Source: Komagataeibacter nataicola (GTDB lineage: Bacteria; Pseudomonadota; Alphaproteobacteria; Acetobacterales; Acetobacteraceae). From it: a stretch of DNA of 64,000 bases. The notes beneath the pieces are model-generated. The model searched no databases, was not told the DNA's origin, and saw only the letters and a list, made by a program, of their open reading frames with translations. Positions 34,848 to 50,461 of the stretch are shown here, in pieces (within the stretch, counting starts at the first letter, position 1; each line of letters opens with the position of its first letter). Made by a program: the position numbers and the translations under genes. The DNA lies in contig NZ_NIRT01000009.1 in assembly GCF_003207795.1 (NCBI RefSeq), forward strand, positions 62,001-126,000, given 5' to 3'.

Positions 34848-35068
34848 ACATGGCGGCTGCCTTTTGTGACCAGAACGCTGCCATGCCGATGGAGTTAACG
34901 CCCTATAGCATGAACCATACGCTGCCGCAGGTGCATCAGAGGTGGCAAGCGTCATACCGTCACGGTTTCATGTTTATGCTTGAAAATGCCGCAATACATC
35001 CGCATCAGGTCGTGCCGTAAAGCGGGTTATGGTAACCTGTTCTGGCTTTTATGGGAAAGGATGGGGGC

Positions 35069-35813
35069 ATGTCCATTCGTATCGGCATCGCGGGCTGGTC
35101 GACCTTTTCCTCAGTGGCTAAAGTCTTGCAGTTGCCCGTTACTGGTTCGCAACTTGAACAGTATGCCGCCTATTTTACGTCTGTCGAGATTAATTCCAGT
35201 TTCTATCGTCCCCATCGGCGCACGACCTACGTGCGCTGGGCCGCAAGCGTGCCGCCCGGGTTCCGCTTCTCCGTTAAACTGCCCCGCACCATCACGCATG
35301 AACGCCGTCTGGTCGACTGTCAGGCGCTGATCGAGCGATTTGCCGAGGAAACGGATGGCCTTGGTGAAAAATGCGGCCCTATCCTGGTTCAGTTTCCCCC
35401 CCAGTTTTGCCTATCCCGGTGATATCGCCGTGCGTTTCTTTCATGATCTACGGGCCAGGTTTGCCGGGGCCATCGTTGTGGAGCCCAGACATGAAAGCTG
35501 GTTTCGCCCAGCGATAGACCATATGCTGGCAGGGTTGCAGATAGCACGCGTGGCAGCGGATCCCGCCCGCCCGGCTTTTGCTGCACAGCCGGGCGGGTGG
35601 CGTGGGCTTGCCTATTTCCGGCTGCATGGCTTCCCGGACATCTATAAGTCACGTTACACACGGGAAGCTGTTGAGGCCCATGCAAAAGTCGTTACAGCCC
35701 TTGCCGCACGCGGCACCGAGGTCTGGACGATCTATGACAACACCACGTATGGGGCTGCCGTGCATAACGGGTTCGAACTTATGGCAGCCTGCGCTGGCGG
35801 TGCTGGAGAATAA
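35069..35813 (+). pseudogene. DUF72 family protein, frameshifted at a 7-C run
   Basis: ATG 35069 opens MSIRIGIAGWSTFSSVAKVL, and the frame runs through EINSSFYRPHRRTTYVRWA to CGPILVQFPP. A run of seven C (35396-35402) adds one base compared with the family's expected frame. The original frame then stops near 35420 while the second frame continues from SFAYPGDIAVRFFHDLRARF through VEPRHESW and YFRLHGFPDIYKSRY to GTEVWTIYDNTTYGAAVHNG and a stop at 35813. The two parts together make a normal DUF72 barrel of about 245 residues (YecE-like, function unknown). A single homopolymer indel could be decay, phase variation or a sequencing error. Confidence 0.8.
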
Positions 35814-37447: not shown

Positions 37448-38281
37448 TCAGGGCCTATTATGGGACTGGCAGATTTCGAGTGGTATCCCGGCGGCTTTCA
37501 GTTTTTCATGCATGGCGGGTCCAATCCGGGCATCCGTCAGCACATGATCGAATGCATCAAGACCGGCCAGTCGGTAGAGGCCACCCTTGCGGAATTTTGA
37601 ACTGTCCACCAGCAGGACCCTCTGATCACAGATTTCCATGAGGATACGCTTGATCTTGATGATGTCCGGGTTGTTCTGGAAGGCGGTACCGTCGTGGATG
37701 ACGGACGTGGACAGGAACATTGTATTGGCATGCAGGCCCTGTGCCGCCTGTTCGCATATCAACCCGAAAAAGGCATTGCGGGGCCGGTTGTAATCGCCCC
37801 CCAGGCAGATCAGGCGCAGGTCAGGGTAGGGGGCCAGTGCCTGGATCACGCCCATGGCGTTTGTGATGATGGTCAGGGGAGCAAGCGCAGGCAGCAGGGG
37901 CAGCATCTCGGCTACGGTGGTTGAATCATCCAGCACAAGGATCTGTTCAGGCCGGATCAGCGATATGGCGCGGGCAATGATGGCCTGTTTGCCCTCTCTG
38001 GCAAGGGCCGTGCGGTAGCTTACGGTCTTCTGCGTGGCGGTGCGGTTGCGCAGGGCAAGGCCGCCATGCAGCTTTTCCACCAGTCCCTGTTGGGCCAGGG
38101 CGTTGGCATCACGGTGAATGGTCATGCGGCTGACGTCAAAATGTGCGGCCAGCGCATCAATGGTGGCGTTACCCGTTTCAAGCAGCAGCTCAAGGATGCG
38201 TTGCTGGCGTGCCATGTTGTCGCCCCGCCGGGCGGGGCGGGTAGACGCCAGGGAATGTGACAGGCCCGTGTTATCGGTCAT
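37448..38281 (-). CDS. DeoR-family repressor of the tetritol locus, copy 1
   Basis: The N-terminal winged helix ([40 protein letters not shown]) is followed by a DeoR sugar-phosphate sensor domain (LVLDDSTTVAEML, NAFFGLICEQAAQGL, DSSKFRKGGLYRLAGLDAFD). The usual effector is a phosphorylated sugar intermediate. Divergent from the eryA-like kinase; the 234-bp gap contains AT-rich palindromes that are its probable operators. A start at 38215 (MARQQRIL) is possible. It is clearly paralogous to the regulator at 43777: both share LDDSTT, FFGL-CEQA and DSTKF/DSSKF blocks. Confidence 0.9.
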   Translation of the reverse strand: MTDNTGLSHSLASTRPARRGDNMARQQRILELLLETGNATIDALAAHFDVSRMTIHRDANALAQQGLVEKLHGGLALRNRTATQKTVSYRTALAREGKQAIIARAISLIRPEQILVLDDSTTVAEMLPLLPALAPLTIITNAMGVIQALAPYPDLRLICLGGDYNRPRNAFFGLICEQAAQGLHANTMFLSTSVIHDGTAFQNNPDIIKIKRILMEICDQRVLLVDSSKFRKGGLYRLAGLDAFDHVLTDARIGPAMHEKLKAAGIPLEICQSHNRP

Positions 38282-38473: not shown

Positions 38474-38515
38474 AGTGAATCCATCACCCTTTTGCTGGAT
38501 ATCGGGAGGTCAGGG

Positions 38516-40117
38516 ATGCGCCGGGACTTCATCATCGGAATAGACTGTGGTTCGACCACGACCAAGGCGGTCATTTTCACCCCTCAGGGCCTGATCGTGG
38601 GAACGGGGCGCAGCCGCGTGGCACAGCATATGGAGCGCCCGCACCATGTCGAACGCGACATGGGCGAGGTATGGCAGGGCGTGGCCGGGACCATCCGCAT
38701 GGCGCTGGATGATGCGGGGCTGGATGGTCAGGCCATTGCCGCGGTGGGCGTAACGGCGCATGGCGATGGGGTGTTCCTGCTGGACCGCATGGGCAACCCG
38801 CTGGGGCGCGGGATCATGTCGCTCGACAGTCGCGCAACGGGCCTGCATGACAGGTGGCGCGAGCGCGGGGTGCTGGACCAGCTTGTGCCGCTGGCGGGGC
38901 AACGGCCTTATGCCTATTCCGCCAATACCCTGCTGGCATGGATCCGTGCACATGAGCCCGAGCGTTATCATGCCATCGGGGCCATCCTGTTTGCCAAGGA
39001 CTGGATCCGGCTGTGCCTGACGGGGGAGGTCGCAACAGACATAACCGAGGCCAGCACGGCCTTTACCGATCTGCATACGCAGCAGTACAGCACCGCCATT
39101 CTGGATATCCTGGGGCTGGAAGGCATGCATGACTGCCTGCCGACCATGCTGGATTCCTGCGCACGCGCGGGGACGGTTACGGCCAGTGCCGCTGCGGCAA
39201 CGGGCCTGCTTGCGGGCACGCCGGTTTCAGCCGGGTTGCATGACGTAACGGCCGCCGCCGTTGGCATGGGCCATACACAGCCGGGCGACATGTCGCTTAC
39301 AGCGGGCACATTTTCCATAAACGAGGTTTTCCGCGACAGGCCTGTCACCGGAGAGGGGTGGGCCTGCCGCGCAGGTTACCGTCGGGGATTGTGGAACTGC
39401 ATGGCGATCTCGCCCGCGTCGTCCAGCAATCTGGAATGGATGGCGCGTCTGCTCCTGCCCGGCAACGGGGATGCCACGACGACACTGATGCATGAGGTAG
39501 AGGAACGCCTGACCGCCGTCCGTCAGGCGCGAACGGTCCCTCTTTTCCATCCTTTCCTGTTCGGCTCCCCTTATGCGGCGCCTGCCAGCGCATCGTTTTT
39601 TGGCGTACAGTCCTGGCATGACCGGACCGATCTGCTGCAGGCGATGGTGGAAGGCATGGTGTTCAACCATCGCATGCATGTCAGCGCCCTGTGCCAGACG
39701 GGACCGGTGGCGCGCGTGGGCATATCCGGTGGCGGCAGCGGCCAGCCTGCAATCGCGCAACTGTTTGCGGATGTGCTGGACAGGCCGGTTGATGTCTCCT
39801 CCGTGCGGGAGGCAGGCGCACTGGGCGCCGCCCTGACCGGGGCGGTGGCGGTTGGCATGCAGCCGGATCTTGAACGGGCGGTGGCGGGGCTGAACGTATT
39901 GCTGCGGACCTATGACCCGCAACCGGCGCAGGTAGCGGCGTATGACGGCATATATCACCGTTACGTGGAGCTGGCGCAGGCCATGTGCCCGTTCTGGCGT
40001 GCACTGTATGATACGTCACCCCCGGCACCATCACACCCGGAGGCTGTATCCGGGGCGCATCCCGCCCTGCATCTGCGTGCTCATCATGCGACAGCCATGG
40101 GTGGGATTCCCTCATGA
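38516..40117 (+). CDS. eryA: FGGY-family kinase, erythritol kinase-like
   Basis: A two-domain FGGY sugar kinase: phosphate loop FIIGIDCGSTTTKAV at 5-19, acceptor-site GVTAHGDGVFLLD, LDSRA, the catalytic-Asp region GLHDVTAAAVG, and C-terminal GISGGGSGQPAIAQLFADVL. ATG 38516 has GGGAGG 6 nt upstream. Length is 533. With an EryB-like dehydrogenase, EryH/EryI isomerases and a polyol-type importer nearby, the best assignment is phosphorylation of erythritol (or a related tetritol) to L-erythritol-4-phosphate. Xylulose or other polyol kinase activity cannot be excluded from sequence. Its stop overlaps the next start by 4 bp. Confidence 0.82.
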   Translation: MRRDFIIGIDCGSTTTKAVIFTPQGLIVGTGRSRVAQHMERPHHVERDMGEVWQGVAGTIRMALDDAGLDGQAIAAVGVTAHGDGVFLLDRMGNPLGRGIMSLDSRATGLHDRWRERGVLDQLVPLAGQRPYAYSANTLLAWIRAHEPERYHAIGAILFAKDWIRLCLTGEVATDITEASTAFTDLHTQQYSTAILDILGLEGMHDCLPTMLDSCARAGTVTASAAAATGLLAGTPVSAGLHDVTAAAVGMGHTQPGDMSLTAGTFSINEVFRDRPVTGEGWACRAGYRRGLWNCMAISPASSSNLEWMARLLLPGNGDATTTLMHEVEERLTAVRQARTVPLFHPFLFGSPYAAPASASFFGVQSWHDRTDLLQAMVEGMVFNHRMHVSALCQTGPVARVGISGGGSGQPAIAQLFADVLDRPVDVSSVREAGALGAALTGAVAVGMQPDLERAVAGLNVLLRTYDPQPAQVAAYDGIYHRYVELAQAMCPFWRALYDTSPPAPSHPEAVSGAHPALHLRAHHATAMGGIPS

Positions 40118-41820
40118 ATACCGCCCAGTCGCCCGTGCAAGACTATGATGTCATCATCATCGGCGCCGGGATCAATGGCGTGGGGCTGATGCGTGAACTG
40201 GCCGTGCAGGGCGCGCGTGTGCTGCTGGTGGACCGGGCGGATATCTGCAGTGGTACCTCCAGCGCCCCATCGCGCCTGATCCATGGCGGACTCAAATACC
40301 TTGAAACCGGGGAGTTCCGCCTGGTCGCGCAATCCACGCTGGAGCGTAACCTGCTGCTGCGCAATGCGCCGCATGTTGTCCATCCATTACCCACCACCGT
40401 GCCGGTCCGGTCATGGTTTGGCGGGATCGTGCCTTCCGTGCGGCGCTTCCTGCGGCTGGGCGGAAAAATGACCGACCGGGGCGCGCTTGTGCTTGAACTT
40501 GGCCTGCAGATCTATGATTTTCTTGGTCGGCATGCCCGCGTCATGCCCCGGCACCGCCTGTTTTCAGGGGCGCGGACCCGTGCGCGCTGGCCACATATGA
40601 GCCGCACCGTCATGGCCTGCGCGCAGTATTATGACGCGGCGATCAGCCAGCCTGAACGGCTGGGCTATGAATGCGTGCATGATGCATTGCGCGCACAGGA
40701 GGGATGTCGTGTCGCGACCTATACCCGCGTTGAATCCTTTCACGATGGCATCGTGGCGCTGCATGACCTGTCACGCGGGCAGTCATGGCAGGCACGGGCT
40801 CCCGTCGTGGTCAATGCGGGCGGTGCATGGATCGATCAGGTCAATGCTGCCCTTGGCGTGTCCACCCGTTATATCGGCGGCACAAAGGGGGCGCACCTGG
40901 TGCTGCGCCATGACGGGCTTTTGCATGAACTCGATGGGAACATGGTGTATTTCGGCACGCCAGATGGGCGTATCTGCCTGGCCTATCCCTTTCTGGGCCA
41001 TGTGCTGGTAGGGTCAACCGATATTCCTGTCTCCGATCCCGACGCGGCCGTCTGCACCGATGCGGAACAGTCCTACATGCTCGATATGCTGGGCGCCCTG
41101 TTCCCCGGTTTCCTGTTTGATGCATCCGATGTGATCTACCGGTACAGTGGCGTGCGGCCCCTGCCAGCCAGTAACGCGTCTGACCCCGGCGCGATCAGCC
41201 GTGACCATATCGTGCATGAAGACCGGTTGGGACCGGTCGCGCTGTTTTCCCTGGTGGGTGGGAAATGGACAACGTTTCGCGGCCTGGCGGAGGAAGTGGC
41301 GGATACCATCCTGCCCCGTCTGGGCCGGGTGCGGCAGGTTTCCACCCGGTTACTGCCAATCGGGGGAGGACGCGGTTATCCCCGCCCCACGGATCTGGAT
41401 GCCCATATTGACCGTTTTGCCGCAACCAGCACCATTCCGCGTGAACGCGCGCGCGTGCTGTTTGACCGGTACGGCACGCTGGCGGTGGAAATCGCGCGGT
41501 TCTGCGCTCTTGGGCCTGATGCACCCCTGAATTGCCTGCCGTCCTATACCCGCCGGGAAATCATGTTCATCGCACGCAATGAACAGGTCCGGCATGTCGC
41601 GGATATTCTCTATCGCCGCACCACCATTGCCATGTCCGGCGCGTTAACGCCTGACGTCACGCACGAAGTGGCGGGCATCACGGGCGAAACCCTTGGGTGG
41701 GATGCCGACAAAATCCAGCGTCAGGCCCGTGATGCCTGGCAGGAAGCCGAGACCCGACATCATCTCGCCGCCCGCGAGAATGCCCCCAGATTCATGCAGC
41801 CCGAACCGATCGGAGCCTGA
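40114..41820 (+). CDS. eryB: FAD-dependent erythritol-4-phosphate dehydrogenase-like (GlpD family)
   Basis: Of the GlpD glycerol-3-phosphate dehydrogenase family. The FAD fold YDVIIIGAGINGVGLMRELA is at 10-29, followed by SGTSSAPSRLIHGGLKYLET, VNAGGAWIDQV and the late VGGKWTTFRGLA. Length (568) matches EryB. It would oxidise L-erythritol-4-P to L-3-tetrulose-4-P and pass electrons to the membrane quinone pool. The first gene (eryA) and the next (41824) are separated by -4 and +3 bp, so these three form a tight operon. GlpD itself is an alternative, but the neighbouring TpiA2 and RpiB homologues favour EryB. Confidence 0.82.
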   Translation: MNTAQSPVQDYDVIIIGAGINGVGLMRELAVQGARVLLVDRADICSGTSSAPSRLIHGGLKYLETGEFRLVAQSTLERNLLLRNAPHVVHPLPTTVPVRSWFGGIVPSVRRFLRLGGKMTDRGALVLELGLQIYDFLGRHARVMPRHRLFSGARTRARWPHMSRTVMACAQYYDAAISQPERLGYECVHDALRAQEGCRVATYTRVESFHDGIVALHDLSRGQSWQARAPVVVNAGGAWIDQVNAALGVSTRYIGGTKGAHLVLRHDGLLHELDGNMVYFGTPDGRICLAYPFLGHVLVGSTDIPVSDPDAAVCTDAEQSYMLDMLGALFPGFLFDASDVIYRYSGVRPLPASNASDPGAISRDHIVHEDRLGPVALFSLVGGKWTTFRGLAEEVADTILPRLGRVRQVSTRLLPIGGGRGYPRPTDLDAHIDRFAATSTIPRERARVLFDRYGTLAVEIARFCALGPDAPLNCLPSYTRREIMFIARNEQVRHVADILYRRTTIAMSGALTPDVTHEVAGITGETLGWDADKIQRQARDAWQEAETRHHLAARENAPRFMQPEPIGA

Positions 41821-41823
41821 ACA

Positions 41824-42822
41824 ATGAACCGCTATGAAACCAAGATTGCCCGCATGGCCGCCGGGACCGACACGCGCGCCGACTTTATCCTGGCCGATGC
41901 GAAGGATGCCGACATGGCGGCAGGCATCAGCGCCATGGGGCGCAACCGCACCATGGGCGGCCTGTCGCCCTATCGCGGCCGGGATGAATATCTGGATGAT
42001 ATCCGCGCGATGCTGGAACTCGATGTGGTCGATATCATGCTGGTCTCAGCCTCCACCCTGGAAACGCTGGTGCACGAAGGCGCTTTTAACAACAGCCGCG
42101 TGCAGCCCGCGATCCGTGCCAATGATACCACCGACCTGTGGCGCGGGCGGGGCAGCCCCTATACCACCCAGCGCTCCGTGCCTTTTCGCAGCGCATCACT
42201 GGCCGGTGCGCAGACCAGGCTCGGCCTGTATTCCATGACCTTCAATGGCAATGCGGAACACGATGCCCATGCGCTGGAATGCTTCCGCCGTTTTCGCGAG
42301 GATGCGCGGGAGCATGGTTTTTCCTATTTCCTTGAAGTATTCAACCCCAATGAAGGGCGAATTGCGCAACCGGACCGCGGTGTCTTCCTCAATGACATGA
42401 TTATCCGCGCCCTTGCTGGCCTGCGGCAGGCGGAGCGGCCGGAATTCCTGAAAATTCCCTTTAATGGCGCGACCGCGCTGACCGAACTGTGTGCATTCGA
42501 TCCACGCATGGTGGTGGGGATCATGGGGGGCGGCAGCGGCACGACGCGCGACTGTCTTGAACTGCTGCACCAGGCCCAGAGCTGTGGGGCGCGGGCGGCC
42601 CTGTTCGGGCGCAAGATTGTCGATGCCGATGACCCGCTGCTGCTGGTGCAGGCCATGCGGCATGTGACGGATGGCAACCTTCCGCCAGATGAAGCCACCT
42701 GTTTCTATCATGATGCCCTGGCCCGCAAGGGACGGCGTGCCGAACGCCCGCTGGGCGCTGACCGCTGCATTACCGATGGCGTGCTGCTCGATGGTCCGGT
42801 CAGCATGGGCATCATGGGCTGA
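41824..42822 (+). CDS. Unknown aldolase-like TIM-barrel protein in tetritol operon
   Basis: Not recognised as EryC: it lacks the xylose-isomerase-superfamily character of that racemase. Segments instead resemble class I aldolases (DeoC/FbaB/LacD type). DVVDIMLVSASTLETLVHEG is strand/helix, EFLKIPFNGA has a Lys on a strand where the Schiff-base Lys of that group sits (compare VKVPY), and VVGIMGGGSGTTRDC followed by AALFGRKI resembles the phosphate-binding end of those barrels. Length is 332. It follows eryB by 3 bp and ends the first transcription unit. It could be a replacement tetrulose-phosphate racemase/epimerase or an aldolase splitting the tetrulose-phosphate; neither is shown. Confidence 0.8.
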   Translation: MNRYETKIARMAAGTDTRADFILADAKDADMAAGISAMGRNRTMGGLSPYRGRDEYLDDIRAMLELDVVDIMLVSASTLETLVHEGAFNNSRVQPAIRANDTTDLWRGRGSPYTTQRSVPFRSASLAGAQTRLGLYSMTFNGNAEHDAHALECFRRFREDAREHGFSYFLEVFNPNEGRIAQPDRGVFLNDMIIRALAGLRQAERPEFLKIPFNGATALTELCAFDPRMVVGIMGGGSGTTRDCLELLHQAQSCGARAALFGRKIVDADDPLLLVQAMRHVTDGNLPPDEATCFYHDALARKGRRAERPLGADRCITDGVLLDGPVSMGIMG

Positions 42823-42987: not shown

Positions 42988-43016
42988 GTGCATCCTGCCA
43001 GATATGGAGACCCGTG

Positions 43017-43799
43017 ATGCATTCCAGGCCGTTATGGATTGGTACCAGCTGGAAAATGAACAAGGGGCCAGCCGCCGCTATCGAGGCCGCGCGCGCCCTG
43101 GCCGCCTTTCATCCGCCTGCGGGGGTGCAACCTTTTGTCATCCCGCCCTTTACATCGCTGAAAGATGTCTGCGCCATTCTGGATGGCACATCCGTACTTG
43201 TGGGGGCGCAGAACACCCATTGGGAGGATGAAGGGGCATGGACGGGAGAAATCTCGCCCGTCATGCTGGCTGAATGTGGTGCAGCCCTGGTGGAAATCGG
43301 CCATTCCGAACGCCGCGCCCATTTTGGTGAAACGGACTGGACCATCAACCTGAAGGTCCATGCCGTCTTGCGCCACGGCATGCGCCCGCTGGTGTGTATC
43401 GGGGATACGGCGCAGGAACATGCGTTTGGCGTGACGGATGATGTGCTGGCCCGTCAACTGCGCATTGCATTGCACGGCGTTCCGCCCGCCCGTCTGGCGC
43501 AGGTACTGGTGGCGTATGAACCGGTCTGGGCCATCGGGGCAGGGGGGCATGCGGCGGATGCCGCGTTTGTGGCCAGTGCCCATGCGCGGCTGCGCGCAGT
43601 GCTGGTACAGATCGCGGGGGAGGAAATCGGGCACGAAATACCGCTGCTGTATGGCGGCAGCGTTACACGCGCCAATGCCTCCGGCTACGTGCGGCTTGCC
43701 AATGTAGATGGTGTCTTTATTGGTCGCGCGGCATGGAGTGTTGCTGATTTCAGGCAGATTATCGGGAGTGTGGCACATGAACATGTTGCATCTGGCTGA
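43017..43799 (+). CDS. eryH: Triosephosphate isomerase homologue, tetrulose-4-phosphate isomerase type
   Basis: The TIM fold with complete catalytic set: IGTSWKMNK (Lys13), EIGHSERR (electrophile His) and YEPVWAIGAG (Glu base), plus LLYGGSVTRANA at the phosphate end. In Brucella the TpiA2/EryH homologue isomerises D-3-tetrulose-4-P during erythritol breakdown. The location between tetritol genes makes this role more likely than housekeeping TpiA. ATG 43017 has GGAG 7 nt ahead; an adjacent GTG (43014) is also possible. Its last 23 bp overlap the DeoR gene. Confidence 0.82.
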   Translation: MHSRPLWIGTSWKMNKGPAAAIEAARALAAFHPPAGVQPFVIPPFTSLKDVCAILDGTSVLVGAQNTHWEDEGAWTGEISPVMLAECGAALVEIGHSERRAHFGETDWTINLKVHAVLRHGMRPLVCIGDTAQEHAFGVTDDVLARQLRIALHGVPPARLAQVLVAYEPVWAIGAGGHAADAAFVASAHARLRAVLVQIAGEEIGHEIPLLYGGSVTRANASGYVRLANVDGVFIGRAAWSVADFRQIIGSVAHEHVASG

Positions 43800-44595
43800 A
43801 ACCGGCGCCGTCGCCACGCGCAGGCGCGCCATGGTCGATTATGTCATGAACCGTGGCAATGTGGAGATTGATGAACTGGTCACGCGGTTTGCAACCAGCC
43901 GCATGACCATCCATCGTGACCTGCAGGCGCTGTCGGCACAGGGGTTGCTGCGCCGGGTGCATGGCGGGGTGACAGCCCTGCCCAACGGCATTGCCGAGAG
44001 CAGCATGCTGTACCGCAGGCGCCGCGCCATGCGTGAAAAGAAGGCCATGGCGGCCATGGCTGCCAGTATGATCGTGCCTGGTGATGTCATCGCGCTGGAT
44101 GATTCGACCACCGCGTGTTGCATGGTGGATCATCTGGCCACGATGGGCGGGGTGACGGTGGTGACCAACAGCCTTGGCATTGCTTCCACCCTGGCGGGCA
44201 TGCCCTCTATCAGCCTTATGGCGCTGGGGGGACGTTACCATCCCATCTTCGATGCGTTTTTCGGGCTGATGTGCGAACAGGCGATCGGGGCATTGCGGGT
44301 GAATACCCTGTTTATGTCCGTATCCGCCGTTCATGGCGTGAACGCCTATCACCAGGAGCAGGAAATCGTAAAAGCCAAGCACGCGCTCATGCGTAGCGCG
44401 GACCGGCGTGTGCTGATGGCTGACAGCACGAAGTTTGGCAGCAATGCACTGAACCGACTGGCGGACCTGTCCGAATTCGATGTGGTGATAACCGATGATG
44501 GTCTTGATCCCGCAATACGTGACAGCCTGCTGGATCATGGCGTTACACTGCAGATGGCATGTCTATGTGCCAGTAATGCCGTAACGCCTGAATAA
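43777..44595 (+). CDS. DeoR-family regulator of the tetritol locus, copy 2
   Basis: A winged helix ([39 protein letters not shown]) and a DeoR sensor domain ([50 protein letters not shown]). The ATG at 43777 with GGGAG at 43763-43767 is preferred; a longer frame lies inside eryH. Paralogous to the protein at 37448, so one regulator may control each of the two operons, or they may bind together. Brucella and rhizobial ery loci use EryD of a different regulator family, so this is a distinct control arrangement. Confidence 0.9.
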
Positions 44596-44629: not shown

Positions 44630-45112
44630 ATGCGTATAGCCATTGGTGGCGATAGCGCCGGTAACGGTATGGCGGGCATGCTTGCGCAGTACCTCAGGGA
44701 CCGTGGAGAGCACGACGTGTGCGACATGTCCGCCCCCCCCGGCGGTGGCAGCGAACTGTATGCCAGCCTGAGCGAGCGGGTGGGGCAGGCCATCATGTCA
44801 GGGGAGTTCGACCGGGGCATCCTGTGCTGCGGCACCGGGATCGGGGTATGCATTTCGGCCAACAAGATACCCGGCATCCGCGCGGCCCTGACCCATGACA
44901 CCTATTCCGCCGAACGGGCGGCCCTGTCCAACAACGCCCACATCATTACCATGGGTGCGCGTGTCATCGGGCCGGAGGTCGCCAAGAGCATCGTGAATGC
45001 GTGGCTGGCCTGTTCGTTTGACCCGCAGGGGCCTTCGGCGCGCAATGTGGCGGGTATCGATGCGCTGGGCGAGAAATATGCCCACGCGGAGCCAGCCGTT
45101 ACGACCTGCTGA
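44630..45112 (+). CDS. eryI: RpiB/LacAB-type isomerase, erythrose-4-phosphate isomerase type
   Basis: A 160-residue Rpi[16 protein letters not shown] at the N-terminus, [20 protein letters not shown] (substrate loop with the catalytic Cys), [17 protein letters not shown] and [10 protein letters not shown]. In Brucella RpiB2/EryI makes D-erythrose-4-P from the product of EryH. Here it follows eryH and deoR and precedes an ABC importer, consistent with that role. It delivers the carbon to the pentose phosphate pathway. Ribose-5-P isomerase activity is also possible for the family. Confidence 0.87.
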
Positions 45113-45164: not shown

Positions 45165-46085
45165 ATGAAAACAGCTTTTCTTCTTGCCACAGCACTGGCG
45201 CTTGCGCCCATGGCGGCGCGGGCGGCAGATGATCACGCACCGCTGCGTTTCGTGCTGATTCCCAAGACGGTTCACCCATGGTTTGACAAGGTGAATACCG
45301 GCGCCCAGGCGGCGGCAGACCTGCTGGGAAAAACGACGGGGCGCAAGGTGGAAATTGAATACCGCGCGCCTGAAACCGCCGATGTATCCTCACAGAACGA
45401 TATCATCGAACGCGCGATCGCAACCCATCCCGACGGGCTGATCCTCGACATGCTGGATGAAAAGGGCAACCACGCCACCATGCTCGAGGCCGTGGATGAA
45501 AAGGTGCCCATGACGGTGTTTGACTCCCTTCCGCCCGAAGGGATGGACATCACGGCAGTGGGGGCCGATTTCTGTGAACAGGGCACGATCGCGGCCCAGC
45601 GCCTTGCAGGGCTGATCGGGGAAAAGGGGGAGGTCGCGATCATGATCGGCGTGCCGACCGCCCCCAACCATACCCGGCGCGCGGAATGCGAACGCGCGGC
45701 GTTTGCCAGGTATCCGCAGATCAGGGTGGTCGCGACCGGTATTGATAACGACAGTATCGAAACCGCGCAGAAACAGGCTTCCGCCATCATGCAGGCCCAT
45801 CCCGATCTTGCCGGATGGGTGGCGTGCGATGCAGCCGGCCCGGTCGGCATCGGTCAGGCCATCCGTGAAAGCGGGCGCACGGGCAAGGTCAAGGAAGTGG
45901 GCCTGGATAACCTGAACGACATGATCCAGCTCATCCGTGACGGGGTGGCGGATTCATCGGCCTCCAGCCGCCCCGAAATGCAGGGCTACTGGGCGGTCAT
46001 CGCCGCATGGCAGCGCGCACTGGGCCAGAAGACGCCCAAATACATAGATACCGGCATAGATGTCCTGACCAAGAAGAACATCTGA
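45165..46085 (+). CDS. Periplasmic sugar/polyol-binding protein of ABC importer
   Basis: An RbsB-like type I binding protein. The signal peptide MKTAFLLATALALAPMAARA is cleaved before ADDH; two alternating alpha/beta lobes follow (FVLIPKTVHPWFDKVNTGAQ, IERAIATHPDGLILDMLDEK, EVAIMIGVPTAPNHTRRAEC, EVGLDNLNDMIQLIRDG). It delivers substrate to the permease encoded at 47610. A tetritol such as erythritol or threitol, or erythrulose, is inferred from the operon; the binding residues do not reveal it. Confidence 0.9.
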   Translation: MKTAFLLATALALAPMAARAADDHAPLRFVLIPKTVHPWFDKVNTGAQAAADLLGKTTGRKVEIEYRAPETADVSSQNDIIERAIATHPDGLILDMLDEKGNHATMLEAVDEKVPMTVFDSLPPEGMDITAVGADFCEQGTIAAQRLAGLIGEKGEVAIMIGVPTAPNHTRRAECERAAFARYPQIRVVATGIDNDSIETAQKQASAIMQAHPDLAGWVACDAAGPVGIGQAIRESGRTGKVKEVGLDNLNDMIQLIRDGVADSSASSRPEMQGYWAVIAAWQRALGQKTPKYIDTGIDVLTKKNI

Positions 46086-46114
46086 TTTTTCCGGATAGTG
46101 ATGGAGTAACGACC

Positions 46115-47620
46115 ATGACGGTTCTCCACGTTTCATCCCTGCGCAAGACCTATCCCGGCGTTGTGGCGCTGGACCATGTTGACCTGACGCTGGAAGCGGG
46201 GAAGGTCCATATCCTCGCCGGGGAAAATGGCGCGGGAAAATCCACGCTGATCAAGGTGCTGACCGGCCTCGTGAGCCCCGATGCGGGCAGCGTGGAAATA
46301 GAGGGCCATGACGCGCTGGCCGATCGCGCCCTGTTTGCCCGCGTGGCGTATGTGCCGCAGGAACTCAGCCTGTTCCCCACCATGACGGTTGCGGAAAACA
46401 TGTTCATGCCCTTCGCCAAATCCGGTTTCGGGCGCATGACCGTATCACGCACGGCAATGGAAGCGGCAGCGCAGAAGCTCATGACCCGCTTTGGCATGCA
46501 TGCCCGGCCGGGGCAGAAGGTGGGCCATATCAGCGTGCCCGACCAGCAGCTCCTGCAGATTGCACGTGCGGCCAGCGCCGAGGATTTCCGGGTGCTGATC
46601 CTTGATGAACCCACGTCCTCGCTCACATCGAGCGAGACGGAACACCTGTTTTCCATCCTGCGCACGCTGCGCGATGAAGGCTGCGCGATCGTGTTCGTCT
46701 CGCACCGGATGGAGGAGATTTTCGCGCTGGGGGATACGGTAACCGTGCTGCGCAACGGGCGCAGCGTGGGCACCTGCCCCATGGCGGAACTCGATGAAGG
46801 CGAACTGATCCGCCTCATGTCCGGCAATAGCGTGCAGCTTGATGAAAGCTTCCAGCCCGGCGTCGCGTCGGGCACACAGGATGTCATCGTCGATGTGGCG
46901 CATCTGTCCGGTCCCGGCTTTACCGATGCCTCCTTTACCCTGCGCCGGGGCGAAATTCTCGGCTTTGCCGGGCTGGTGGGGGCGGGGCGATCCGAACTCA
47001 TGCAGACCATGTTTGGCTATCACCGCGCAACGGCAGGCCGGTGCGTGCTGGATGGGCATGAGATCCCGCGCGGCAGGCCGGACAGGGCCGTGGCGATGGG
47101 CATGCTCTACCTGCCTGAGGAGAGGCGGCACCATGGCATTTTTCCGCTGCTGAGCGTGCGCGAGAATATTGCCGTGTCCGTCATGGACCAGATCATGGGC
47201 GGTGGCGTCATTTCATCCGGCCGGGAACGGCGTGTGGTGGCCGATGCCATCGAGCGCTTCGATGTGCGCACGTCATCGGCGGAAAAAAAGATCATGTATC
47301 TGTCGGGTGGCAACCAGCAAAAGGCGATCATCGGCCGCGCCATGGCGCGCAGGCCGCGTGTGCTGATCTTTGATGAGCCGACCAAGGGCATCGACATCGG
47401 CACAAAGTTCCAGATCTACCGCATCATGCAGCAACTGGCGGAAGAGGGGGTGGGAATCATCCTCGTCTCCTCCGAAATGGCGGAGCTGCAACGCTGCGCC
47501 ACCCGCATCATCACCATGCATGCCGGGCGGATCACCGGTTCGTTCGACCAGGCCACGACCGACATCAATACACTTGTGGGCGCGATTATCGGCGCGCCGG
47601 AGGTTCGTCATGTCGCTTGA
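46115..47620 (+). CDS. Sugar ABC importer ATPase, two nucleotide-binding domains
   Basis: A tandem ATPase of the RbsA/MglA type (501 aa). First domain: Walker A GENGAGKST (36-44) and LILDEPTSSLTSSE; the usual signature is altered to ISVPDQQ. Second domain: a degenerate Walker A (GLVGAGRSELM), LSGGNQQKAIIGRA signature and LIFDEPTKGIDIG. The asymmetry between halves is normal for the family. The ATG at 46115 has GGAG 9 nt ahead. It energises the permease at 47610, whose start overlaps this stop by 11 bp. Confidence 0.94.
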   Translation: MTVLHVSSLRKTYPGVVALDHVDLTLEAGKVHILAGENGAGKSTLIKVLTGLVSPDAGSVEIEGHDALADRALFARVAYVPQELSLFPTMTVAENMFMPFAKSGFGRMTVSRTAMEAAAQKLMTRFGMHARPGQKVGHISVPDQQLLQIARAASAEDFRVLILDEPTSSLTSSETEHLFSILRTLRDEGCAIVFVSHRMEEIFALGDTVTVLRNGRSVGTCPMAELDEGELIRLMSGNSVQLDESFQPGVASGTQDVIVDVAHLSGPGFTDASFTLRRGEILGFAGLVGAGRSELMQTMFGYHRATAGRCVLDGHEIPRGRPDRAVAMGMLYLPEERRHHGIFPLLSVRENIAVSVMDQIMGGGVISSGRERRVVADAIERFDVRTSSAEKKIMYLSGGNQQKAIIGRAMARRPRVLIFDEPTKGIDIGTKFQIYRIMQQLAEEGVGIILVSSEMAELQRCATRIITMHAGRITGSFDQATTDINTLVGAIIGAPEVRHVA

Positions 47621-48626
47621 AACCACATTCCCCACCACACCGCCCACCCCGCCGCGCCTGCCGCCCCTGCGCAGGCTGGCCGCACGCTGCATGAGCAGCC
47701 CGCTCGGTGGCGTCATTGCGGCCCTTGTCCTGATCTTTGGCGCGTCATGCCTGCTGTCGCCGCATTTCCTGACCGGCTTCAACATGATGATTATGGCCCG
47801 CGCGCTGGCCTTTATCGGGCTGGTCACGATCGGGCAGTCGATCCTCATGATCCTTGGAGAACTCGACCTGTCGGTCGGGGCGATTGGCGGGCTGGCCGGT
47901 ATTACGGGCGGCATGCTGATGGTGCAGGCGGGGCTGAACCCGTGGCTGTCGCTGGTACTGTGCCTGCTGCTCGGAACTGTCTGCGGCATGTTCAATGGCG
48001 TGCTGATTACCCAGTTGCGGCTGCATTCGCTGGTGCTGACCATCGGTATGGCTGGCGTGTACGGCGGCGCGATCCTGGTGGCGACCAAGGGGGTGGCCAT
48101 TACCGGCGTGCCCGTTGACATTTCCTTCCTGGGCCGTGGGCTGGTTTATGGCGTGCCGGTGCCTTTCCTCATCCTGCTCGCCTGCCTTGGGGTGGTGGCC
48201 TTTGTCATGGTGCGCACGCCGGTCGGGCGGTACGTCTATGCCATTGGCAGCAATCCTGAAGCCGCCCGCATGCTCGGCCTGCGGGTGGACGCCATCCGTA
48301 TCGCCGCTTTCGCCACGGCGGGCTTCCTGTCAGCCCTTGCGGGGATTCTTATGGTGGCGCGGCTGGGCACGGCGCAGCCCTCCATTGGCGATACATGGGT
48401 GCTGGCCCCCATCGCGGCTGCCGTCATTGGCGGTGTTGCGACCACGGGGGGGCTGGGCAGCCCGGTGGGGGCGGTTCTGGGTGCCGTCATCATCGGCATG
48501 ATCGAGAACATCATCGTGCTGTTTGGCATCTCGCCTTACTGGCAGTCGGTGGTCAGCGGCGGAATTGTGGTGCTGGCCATCTCCTTTGATTCCCTGGCGC
48601 GTCGCTACCTGCACCGTGAGGCATGA
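47610..48626 (+). CDS. Sugar ABC importer permease (RbsC-like)
   Basis: A 338-residue inner-membrane protein with about nine or ten helices. IGQSILMILGELDLSVGAI is the classic permease motif, and VRTPVGRYVYAIGSNPEAAR is the loop that contacts the ATPase. The ATG at 47610, with GGAGG at 47599-47603, lies inside the end of the ATPase gene, indicating coupling. A longer upstream frame lies wholly within the ATPase gene and is not used. It probably works as a homodimer. Confidence 0.94.
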   Translation: MSLETTFPTTPPTPPRLPPLRRLAARCMSSPLGGVIAALVLIFGASCLLSPHFLTGFNMMIMARALAFIGLVTIGQSILMILGELDLSVGAIGGLAGITGGMLMVQAGLNPWLSLVLCLLLGTVCGMFNGVLITQLRLHSLVLTIGMAGVYGGAILVATKGVAITGVPVDISFLGRGLVYGVPVPFLILLACLGVVAFVMVRTPVGRYVYAIGSNPEAARMLGLRVDAIRIAAFATAGFLSALAGILMVARLGTAQPSIGDTWVLAPIAAAVIGGVATTGGLGSPVGAVLGAVIIGMIENIIVLFGISPYWQSVVSGGIVVLAISFDSLARRYLHREA

Positions 48627-48664: not shown

Positions 48665-50461
48665 ATGCAAATGACCAGAATTTGCGGCAATGCATCCGAA
48701 TTCGCCCACTCCGCCCTGCATGGCTACAGTCTTGTTTACCGTGACATCGTGCGCATGGTGCGCGGCGGGGTCGTACGCGCAAAGGCAGGCCGGGCGGGCA
48801 AGGTGGCGGTGGTTGTGGGGGGTGGTTCAGGCCATTACCCTGCCTTTAACGGCTATGTCGGCACCGGCTTTGCCGATGCGGCGGTGGCGGGGGATATCTT
48901 TGCCTCGCCATCCACGCAGGCCATCTATTCCGTGGCGCGCAGGGCCGAGCGGGGCGGCGGCGTGATCCTGGGTTTCGGAAACTATGCGGGCGACGTGCTG
49001 AACTTCGGCATCGCGGCGGAGCGCCTGCGCCGTGAAGGGATCGATACCCGCCTGCTGGCCACGACCGATGACGTGGCCAGCGCCGAGGTGGGCGACATGG
49101 CGCGCAGGCGCGGCATTGCAGGCGACATGACCGTGTTCCGGATTGTGGGGGCTGCGGCCGAAGAAGGGCTGGACCTTGATGCGGTCGAGGAAGTGGGGCG
49201 GCGCGCCAATAGCCAGACCCGCACCTTTGGCGTGGCGTTTGAAGGCTGCACCCTGCCCGGGGAGGCCGACCTGCTGTTCCATGTGCCCAGAAACCGCATG
49301 GCGCTTGGGCTTGGCGTGCATGGTGAACCGGGCATAGATGAACAGGACATTCCGCCACCCGCGCAACTGGCGCATGTGCTGTTTGACCGTATTCTGGCGG
49401 AACTGCCCGATGGCGCGCCCCGGCGGGTTGCGATCGTGCTCAACGGGCTGGGCAGCACCAAGCATGAGGAACTGTTTGTGCTGTGGGAGGCGCTCGCCCC
49501 CCTGCTGGCGCAGGCGGGCCTGACCGTCATTGCCCCGCTGGTGGGGGAATATGTGACCAGTCTTGATATGGCAGGCTGTTCCCTGACCATGACGTGGCTG
49601 GATGAGGAACTGGAGCGCTACTGGCGTGCGCCGGTCGAGACGGCAGCCCTGCGCCATGCGGGCATTATGGGTGAACCTGACACCACCGGCAGCGTGATGG
49701 AGGAAGCCCCCCCTGTGGTTCATGCCCCGGCCGGAACCCCGGCTGGCCGACGTGGTGGCCTGTGCGTGGCGGAAACCATGACGCGGCTGGCGCAGGCGCT
49801 GGCCGGGGCGGAGGGTGAACTGGGCCGTATTGATGCCGTGGCCGGGGATGGCGATCACGGGCAGGGCATGGCCCGCGGGTCGGCGGCCGCCCGTCAGGCC
49901 GCCCGTCAGGCCGCGCAGGCCCGTGCCGGGGCCGCGACCGTGCTGGCGGCGGCGGCAGATGCATGGGCCGACCGTGCGGGTGGCACATCAGGCGCATTGT
50001 GGGGTGAGGGCCTGCGTGCCTTCAGCACGGCGCTGGATGATGTATCCGTGCCTGATGCGCGGCAACTGGTTCACGGCGCCCGGTGCGCCATGGAACGTGT
50101 CATGCAACTGGGGCGGGCGCAGGTTGGCGACAAGACGCTCATGGACGCGCTGGTTCCCTTTGTTGAAACGCTGGAACGTGAGTGCGACCATGGGTGCGCC
50201 CTGTCCGGCGCGTGGCAGGTGGCGGCGGATGCGGCGCAGAAGGCTGCGGACGCCACGCGTGACTTGCTGCCGCGCATGGGGCGCGCCCGCACCCATGGCA
50301 CGCGCAGCCTGGGCCACCCTGATGCCGGGGCCCTGTCGCTGGCGCTGTGCCTGCGCGTGGTGGGGGAAGGGCTACCCCTGATCGAGCCGGCATCTGTATC
50401 GATGCTGCCCATGGAGCATATGAGCGGGGAAAAACCGGTTCTGGACGAATTTCGTTCCTGA
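48665..50461 (+). CDS. Dihydroxyacetone-kinase family (DhaK-DhaL fusion), probable erythrulose kinase
   Basis: One chain holds a DhaK substrate domain (about 1-335) and a DhaL ATP domain (about 365-575). DhaK shows VVVGGGSGHYPAFNGYVGTG and LGVHGEPGI, with His219 in the position that binds the ketose covalently. DhaL shows AVAGDGDHGQGMARG with the Mg-binding Asp residues and DRAGGTSGALWGEG. The ATP-using fusion form occurs in DHA kinases and in the D- and L-erythrulose kinases DerK/LerK. As last gene of the tetritol operon it more likely phosphorylates erythrulose than dihydroxyacetone, giving the locus a second entry route. Confidence 0.88.
   Translation: MQMTRICGNASEFAHSALHGYSLVYRDIVRMVRGGVVRAKAGRAGKVAVVVGGGSGHYPAFNGYVGTGFADAAVAGDIFASPSTQAIYSVARRAERGGGVILGFGNYAGDVLNFGIAAERLRREGIDTRLLATTDDVASAEVGDMARRRGIAGDMTVFRIVGAAAEEGLDLDAVEEVGRRANSQTRTFGVAFEGCTLPGEADLLFHVPRNRMALGLGVHGEPGIDEQDIPPPAQLAHVLFDRILAELPDGAPRRVAIVLNGLGSTKHEELFVLWEALAPLLAQAGLTVIAPLVGEYVTSLDMAGCSLTMTWLDEELERYWRAPVETAALRHAGIMGEPDTTGSVMEEAPPVVHAPAGTPAGRRGGLCVAETMTRLAQALAGAEGELGRIDAVAGDGDHGQGMARGSAAARQAARQAAQARAGAATVLAAAADAWADRAGGTSGALWGEGLRAFSTALDDVSVPDARQLVHGARCAMERVMQLGRAQVGDKTLMDALVPFVETLERECDHGCALSGAWQVAADAAQKAADATRDLLPRMGRARTHGTRSLGHPDAGALSLALCLRVVGEGLPLIEPASVSMLPMEHMSGEKPVLDEFRS

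Follow-up and report, generated by a model that had tools for sequence, protein, structure and literature searches.

The window analysed here is a 64,000-nucleotide stretch of the Komagataeibacter nataicola genome (contig NZ_NIRT01000009.1, positions 62,001 to 126,000), and we number positions from its first nucleotide. The gene under study, which we call ALD, lies at 41824-42822 on the + strand; it is an ORF of 332 codons that starts with ATG. ALD begins just 3 nt past the stop codon of the upstream dehydrogenase gene, and a gap of 191 bp separates it from the downstream gene, a triose-phosphate isomerase (TIM) homologue.

ALD is part of an operon on the + strand. A DeoR-family regulator (37448..38281, - strand) is divergent from it; this is not EryD, which is a SorC-type regulator. 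The operon begins with an FGGY-family polyol kinase (38516..40117; the listed ORF starts at 38492) and, as judged by sequence comparison, an FAD-dependent polyol-phosphate dehydrogenase that resembles glycerol-3-phosphate dehydrogenase (GlpD-like; 40114..41820). After ALD come the EryH/LerI-type TIM homologue (43014..43799), a second DeoR-family regulator (43777..44595), an EryI/DerI-type RpiB homologue (44630..45112), the periplasmic sugar-binding protein of an ABC transporter (45165..46085), a sugar ABC transporter ATP-binding protein (46106..47620) and permease (47607..48626), and a DhaK-DhaL fusion kinase (DhaKL; 48665..50461), which is probably a LerK-type erythrulose kinase. The ATP-binding protein and the permease are conserved operon members in related genomes, and their families were assigned from their sequences. 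This gene order is retained in five other genomes (G060, G135, G222, G189, and G022), and ALD keeps its place in the operon in other Komagataeibacter. In three further genomes (G079, G025, and G048), DhaKL accompanies RpiB and the transporter without ALD.

A preliminary description of the locus placed it in a tetrose-phosphate context, with EryH- and EryI-like proteins, and this holds up. The TIM and RpiB homologues are closest to the TpiB and RpiB of ery loci (49% and 62% to the Rhizobium johnstonii proteins, respectively), RpiB scores above the curated threshold of NF051858, the NCBIfam model for D-erythrulose-4-phosphate isomerase, and the DhaKL kinase fits the same context. The operon's TIM is not the sole triose-phosphate isomerase of the genome, as a separate housekeeping TIM is encoded on contig C102. 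The set of DhaKL, TIM, and RpiB resembles the L-erythrulose route of Mycobacterium smegmatis (LerK, LerI, and DerI), but the operon goes beyond that route by including the FGGY kinase, the GlpD-like dehydrogenase, and ALD.

Upstream of the operon, a DUF72-like gene (35051-35813) is apparently split into overlapping frames at 35051-35422 and 35340-35813, by a frameshift or a sequencing error.

ALD belongs to a family of class I aldolase-type proteins

The closest matches to ALD among its relatives are from K. xylinus (90-93%), and we found at least 574 loci with relatives of ALD. When ALD is compared to its congeners, third codon positions dominate the substitutions (for example, 14/8/43 and 16/13/78 at positions 1/2/3), and therefore ALD is a coding gene under purifying selection.

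Searches of Pfam, NCBIfam, and PDB sequences with the single ALD protein gave no confident family; the single-sequence searches returned a weak C-terminal match to LsrF and nothing more. Pfam had no matches to ALD, the aldolase models of Pfam did not match any of 49 ALD relatives, and the NCBIfam aldolase models (for LsrF, FBP aldolase, and ADH synthase) gave 23.1 bits where the cut-off is 297. Profile and fold searches did identify a family. The AlphaFold model of ALD (pLDDT 91.2, pTM 0.90) is a (beta/alpha)8 TIM barrel, and all 50 of the matches listed from the PDB fold search are class I Schiff-base aldolases or synthases that act on sugar phosphates. The top matches were LsrF (1.4e-9), the ADH synthase MJ0400, an archaeal FBP aldolase (TM to target up to 0.78), and LacD. 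A profile of the ALD family also found LsrF (4e-4) and MJ0400 (0.013). Thus the barrel that the preliminary description had proposed from motifs is borne out, with known class I aldolases as its nearest relatives in fold.

In ALD, the motif FLKIPFNGA begins at residue 208 and the motif MGGGSGTT at residue 234. The lysine of the first motif, Lys210, is invariant in 86/86 ALD homologues and is the predicted Schiff-base lysine, in strand 6 (residues 209-211). In the alignment of the ALD family to LsrF from hhalign (E = 2e-5), Lys210 is paired with Lys203 of LsrF, which we take to be its catalytic lysine, and a GRK loop is paired with GRN; the placement of Lys210 as the catalytic residue is read from this alignment. 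The predicted phosphate-binding loops, Gly235-236 and Gly262-Arg263, follow strands 7 and 8. All of these residues, along with Asp25 and Glu171, are invariant or nearly so across the family.

LsrF (3-hydroxy-5-phosphonooxypentane-2,4-dione thiolase) from E. coli is the best match to ALD by both fold and profile and shares the aligned lysine and the GG and GR phosphate loops. However, it is only about 16% identical to ALD in the fold alignment, and it has another genomic context and another substrate, as it is a thiolase that acts on a product of AI-2. Similarly, the archaeal-type class I FBP aldolases and ADH synthases (1ojx and 1w8s from Thermoproteus tenax; MJ0400) and LacD share the fold, the lysine in strand 6, and the phosphate loops, but they are just 14-16% identical to ALD, ALD is below the cut-offs of their Pfam and NCBIfam models, and ALD has an extra, invariant motif, ADAKDADM. 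Members of the family occur in Proteobacteria, Verrucomicrobiota, Planctomycetota, Actinomycetota, and other phyla, and are annotated as "hypothetical protein". It is a large sequence family of the class I (Schiff-base) aldolase type that had not been described, whose fold is known and whose chemistry is probably known. Taken by themselves, the fold and the lysine do not distinguish an aldolase from an epimerase, a transaldolase, or a thiolase such as LsrF.

The kinase and dehydrogenase are not EryA and EryB

ALD lies after a polyol-phosphate dehydrogenase gene and before EryH- and EryI-type genes, as does EryC (D-erythrulose-1-phosphate 3-epimerase) in ery operons. However, EryC belongs to the xylose-isomerase superfamily, while ALD has no match to PF01261 in Pfam and, in the fold search, no xylose-isomerase-superfamily fold; also, some operons dispense with both proteins (see below).

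Moreover, the genes upstream of ALD, which had been described as EryA- and EryB-like, do not encode EryA and EryB. We compared them to plasmid pRL12 of R. johnstonii. There, the true ery operon (eryA, eryB, eryC, the SorC-type eryD, a DeoR regulator, tpiB, and rpiB) adjoins an eryEFG-type transporter, and a second DeoR-FGGY-GlpD set lies on the far side of that transporter. The FGGY kinase from the window is 26% identical to the true EryA but 44% to this second kinase, and the dehydrogenase is 28.5% identical to the true EryB but 49% to the dehydrogenase of the second pair. (The best NCBIfam score of the kinase is for a xylulokinase model, and it is under the cut-off.) Because the pair upstream of ALD had been misassigned, the claim that ALD sits where EryC is expected is unsound.

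By sequence, the pair resembles a second set of kinase and dehydrogenase for tetritols, which would correct the pathway. Such pairs occupy the equivalent place in Shinella and Paracoccus, and two genomes of acetic acid bacteria (G079 and G048) have the pair inside a true ery operon. Across rhizobia, Paracoccus, and acetic acid bacteria, we noted a second FGGY/GlpD-like pair beside the erythritol transporter at six loci. This is likely a threitol pair, with no assigned function so far. On stereochemical grounds, if L-threitol is phosphorylated and then oxidised beside the phosphate, the product would be L-erythrulose-1-phosphate, which is the substrate of EryH/LerI, so that EryC would not be needed; erythritol via EryA and EryB would instead yield D-erythrulose-1-phosphate, and EryC would be needed. 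(We use the enzyme names EryA, EryB, EryC, EryH, and LerI as in PMC10733421.)

Distribution of ALD and EryC in acetic acid bacteria

The preliminary description was correct that the genome lacks EryC: we found no homologue of EryC and no protein at all with a match to PF01261. As a positive control, the same EryC query identified EryC in 5 of 249 Acetobacteraceae genomes.

To compare the distributions of ALD and EryC, we considered the 17 Acetobacteraceae genomes that contain an FGGY kinase of the operon's type. Nine of them have ALD in the operon (G000, which is the window's genome, the five with the same gene order, G218, G009, and G149). In another two (G048 and G079), the pair is embedded in a true ery operon, where EryC is present and ALD is not. 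The remaining six (G008, G012, G041, G085, G192, and G228) have the pair with neither ALD nor EryC at that locus. So, ALD is not present wherever the kinase, the dehydrogenase, and EryH- and EryI-type isomerases occur without EryC. In particular, the operon of G008 is colinear with the window's operon except that ALD is missing between the dehydrogenase and the TIM, and this genome has no ALD or EryC; G041 has a tightly packed FGGY-GlpD-TpiB-RpiB cluster without ALD or EryC; and G012 has the pair, a TIM, and a weaker RpiB (49%), with neither ALD nor EryC. Nor are ALD and EryC mutually exclusive, as G022 contains both a full operon of the window's type, including ALD, and a true eryABC operon.

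ALD is not required by the main path of the operon, and its occurrence is not simply anti-correlated with that of EryC. Since some operons have the TIM and RpiB homologues but neither ALD nor EryC, a racemase step is not implied.

Two candidate features from this survey were rejected. In the gap between the dehydrogenase and TIM genes of G228, from Asaia, a decayed copy of ALD was suggested by a weak translated match, which had no DNA-level support. Near the operon of G218, the EryB-like match that might have indicated a true ery locus looks like an ordinary glycerol-3-phosphate dehydrogenase.

ALD relatives are found near sugar kinases and isomerases

We used Pfam to identify the genes within 3 kb of ALD relatives at 80 loci. 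PfkB kinases were found at 30 loci, D-lyxose/mannose isomerase at 17, "prokaryotic ketohexokinase" (Khk) at 13, FGGY kinases at 11, and DhaK at 6. Beyond 5 kb, we found no PfkB, Khk, or lyxose isomerase at any of the 80 loci. Rhizobial plasmids have an ABC-ALD-PfkB arrangement, and in Agrobacterium and Martelella the order is dehydrogenase-FGGY kinase-ABC-ALD-SorC, and neither TIM nor RpiB is annotated in the vicinity. The company of PfkB, Khk, and the isomerase is the context of a ketose-1-phosphate aldolase.

The ALD proteins from acetic acid bacteria come from two types of loci, and they form one clade with support of 100/100. In most members of this clade, Asn142 is replaced by Gly and Asn266 by Val or Leu; these positions adjoin the barrel loops, and the catalytic set is kept in nearly all of the proteins. 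As read from the alignment, these changes fit with an altered substrate.

In the second type of locus, a second copy of ALD from Asaia and Ameyamaea (five loci, including L008 6891-14596) is accompanied by DhaKL and by a D-erythronate dehydrogenase that carries a fused xylose-isomerase-like domain. The Asaia version adds an SDR similar to L-rhamnose-1-dehydrogenase and a lactonase-like amidohydrolase. The known tetronate route ends with OtnC, which decarboxylates 3-oxo-4-phosphotetronate to DHAP (PMC12540250). We found no OtnK- or OtnC-type genes among the ORFs that we scanned, which cover part of the Asaia locus, so the ALD copy there may act as the C-C lyase in a pathway for C4 acids. The Asaia/Ameyamaea locus could possibly encode a new tetrose or tetronate pathway whose kinase is of the DhaKL type and whose lyase belongs to class I.

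At eight Verrucomicrobia-type loci, an ALD-like gene ends an operon of the bacterial microcompartment type, with a PduL-type PTAC, shell-like proteins of ~93-108 amino acids, an aldehyde dehydrogenase, and a class II aldolase. This context hints at a link between ALD relatives and ketose-1-phosphates or aldehydes. One of these loci (L067) is from a metagenome-assembled contig that is labelled Klebsiella pneumoniae, but it has the Verrucomicrobia-type operon and clusters with Verrucomicrobia in the tree, so the bin is probably mislabelled.

ALD as a candidate ketose-1-phosphate lyase

We propose that ALD represents a new family of class I ketose-1-phosphate lyases and that the branch from acetic acid bacteria has probably been adapted to C4 substrates, erythrulose-1-phosphate being one candidate (probability of roughly 0.6 overall). 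Given the fold and the gene neighborhoods, aldolase chemistry is likely. A C4 substrate is an even bet, and the choice of erythrulose-1-phosphate in particular is tentative.

In the proposed mechanism, Lys210 would form an imine with the C2 ketone of a ketose-1-phosphate whose phosphate would be bound by the loops that follow strands 7 and 8. Cleavage would occur between C3 and C4, and the enamine would then release DHAP. Elsewhere in the family, the substrates would probably be fructose-1-phosphate or pentulose-1-phosphate made by the adjoining PfkB or ketohexokinase-type kinases. In acetic acid bacteria, where ALD is found in C4 loci with DhaKL, the substrate would probably be a C4 ketone phosphate. 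The ALD from the window would convert erythrulose-1-phosphate, perhaps the D-enantiomer, which the EryH-EryI branch could not use, to DHAP and formaldehyde. ALD would supply an accessory route within a tetritol/erythrulose operon. The main path would run, without a racemase, from the kinase and dehydrogenase or from DhaKL to L-erythrulose-1-phosphate, and then via the EryH-type TIM and the EryI-type RpiB to erythrose-4-phosphate.

Ketose-1-phosphate cleavage by ketohexokinase and aldolase B is well known in animals. To our knowledge, it is little described in bacteria. Our literature search for a bacterial fructose-1-phosphate aldolase of the ALD type, or for its ketohexokinase partner, found only the ketohexokinase pathway of haloarchaea, which uses a different aldolase. 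The ALD family is a widespread class I aldolase-type family of hypothetical proteins without a Pfam model, and the genes found with it (for ketohexokinase, PfkB, lyxose/mannose isomerase, polyol kinase with dehydrogenase, and DhaKL) suggest that it cleaves ketose-1-phosphates.

The reaction that we propose for ALD is EC 4.1.2.2 (erythrulose-1-phosphate formaldehyde-lyase or ketotetrose-phosphate aldolase), which is also the EPS reaction of the EuMP cycle (PMC10733421); LerI- and DerI-type isomerases are encoded in the ALD operon. The known catalysts of this reaction are promiscuous FBP aldolases, FucA, and RhaD, and the ALD family is not among them. Both class I and class II DHAP aldolases can make or cleave erythrulose-1-phosphate; this is a side activity of several of these enzymes, and a role in erythritol breakdown was suggested in Propionibacterium and Sinorhizobium meliloti (PMC10733421). 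An aldolase that would be new for tetritol breakdown, as the preliminary description put it, is therefore not wholly new in kind, but the sequence family had not been assigned to any reaction. In acetic acid bacteria, ALD would be a candidate gene for erythrulose-1-phosphate cleavage alongside both isomerases of the EuMP route, a co-occurrence that was called for in PMC10733421.

A stronger claim is that ALD is a dedicated erythrulose-1-phosphate lyase or synthase, that is, that it encodes EC 4.1.2.2 and shares its operon with LerI- and DerI-type isomerases and an erythrulose kinase. If so, Komagataeibacter would have, in natural form, the EuMP connection of C4 sugar phosphates with DHAP and formaldehyde, which so far is known only from an engineered cycle that relies on promiscuous aldolases. 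We consider this doubtful. Formaldehyde is a costly product and we found no formaldehyde gene within the operon, which counts against cleavage of erythrulose-1-phosphate. The genome does encode three proteins of the class III formaldehyde dehydrogenase type that score above the cut-off, all on other contigs, so judging by its genes it could in principle oxidise formaldehyde; class III formaldehyde dehydrogenases are common.

Alternatively, ALD might be a non-orthologous replacement for EryC, as was suggested initially: it would racemise D-erythrulose-1-phosphate (L-3-tetrulose-4-phosphate) to L-erythrulose-1-phosphate, which would feed EryH and EryI, and it may do so by proton exchange at C3 of the Lys210 imine or by retro-aldol and aldol steps. 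The absence of EryC and of any PF01261 protein from the genome, the direct coupling of ALD to the dehydrogenase gene and its place ahead of EryH/EryI-type genes in the majority of the nine genomes, and the displacement-like pattern in G079 and G048, which have the pair and EryC but no ALD, all favor this idea. On the other hand, three genomes manage with the pair, a TIM, and an RpiB homologue but neither ALD nor EryC (G008, G012, and G041), G022 holds ALD as well as the full eryABC operon, ALD retains the residues that are conserved across a family with an aldolase context, and the upstream pair is not EryA and EryB. We therefore consider the replacement of EryC unlikely. An aldolase that gives a different route, which was the second option in the preliminary description, fits the evidence better.

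ALD could also be a lyase for other substrates that arise from side activities of the FGGY kinase, the dehydrogenase, or DhaKL: it might cleave a pentulose- or hexulose-1-phosphate, or decarboxylate 3-oxotetronate-4-phosphate. The neighbors of the wider family (ketohexokinase, PfkB, and lyxose/mannose isomerase), the D-erythronate dehydrogenase and DhaKL beside the Asaia/Ameyamaea paralogs, and the sub-threshold xylulokinase hit of the FGGY kinase would all suit such a role. But the isomerases of the window's operon are of the C4 type, neither a tetronate dehydrogenase nor a pentose isomerase is encoded there, and the clade from acetic acid bacteria has altered residues that are conserved in the members with a C5/C6 context, so we judge these substrates to be rather improbable. 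Finally, LacD.1 and some other aldolases have turned regulatory, and ALD is dispensable in that several colinear operons lack it. That ALD is a regulatory or catalytically unrelated protein with an aldolase fold is nevertheless very improbable, because its putative active-site set is invariant across phyla and its context of kinases and isomerases is consistent.

Within the clade from acetic acid bacteria, the ALD of the G149 operon (Asaia; L142 9254-10147) stands apart. It has substitutions at two invariant positions (Lys27 to Arg and Gly215 to Thr) and lies on a long branch. This copy may differ in function or may be decaying.
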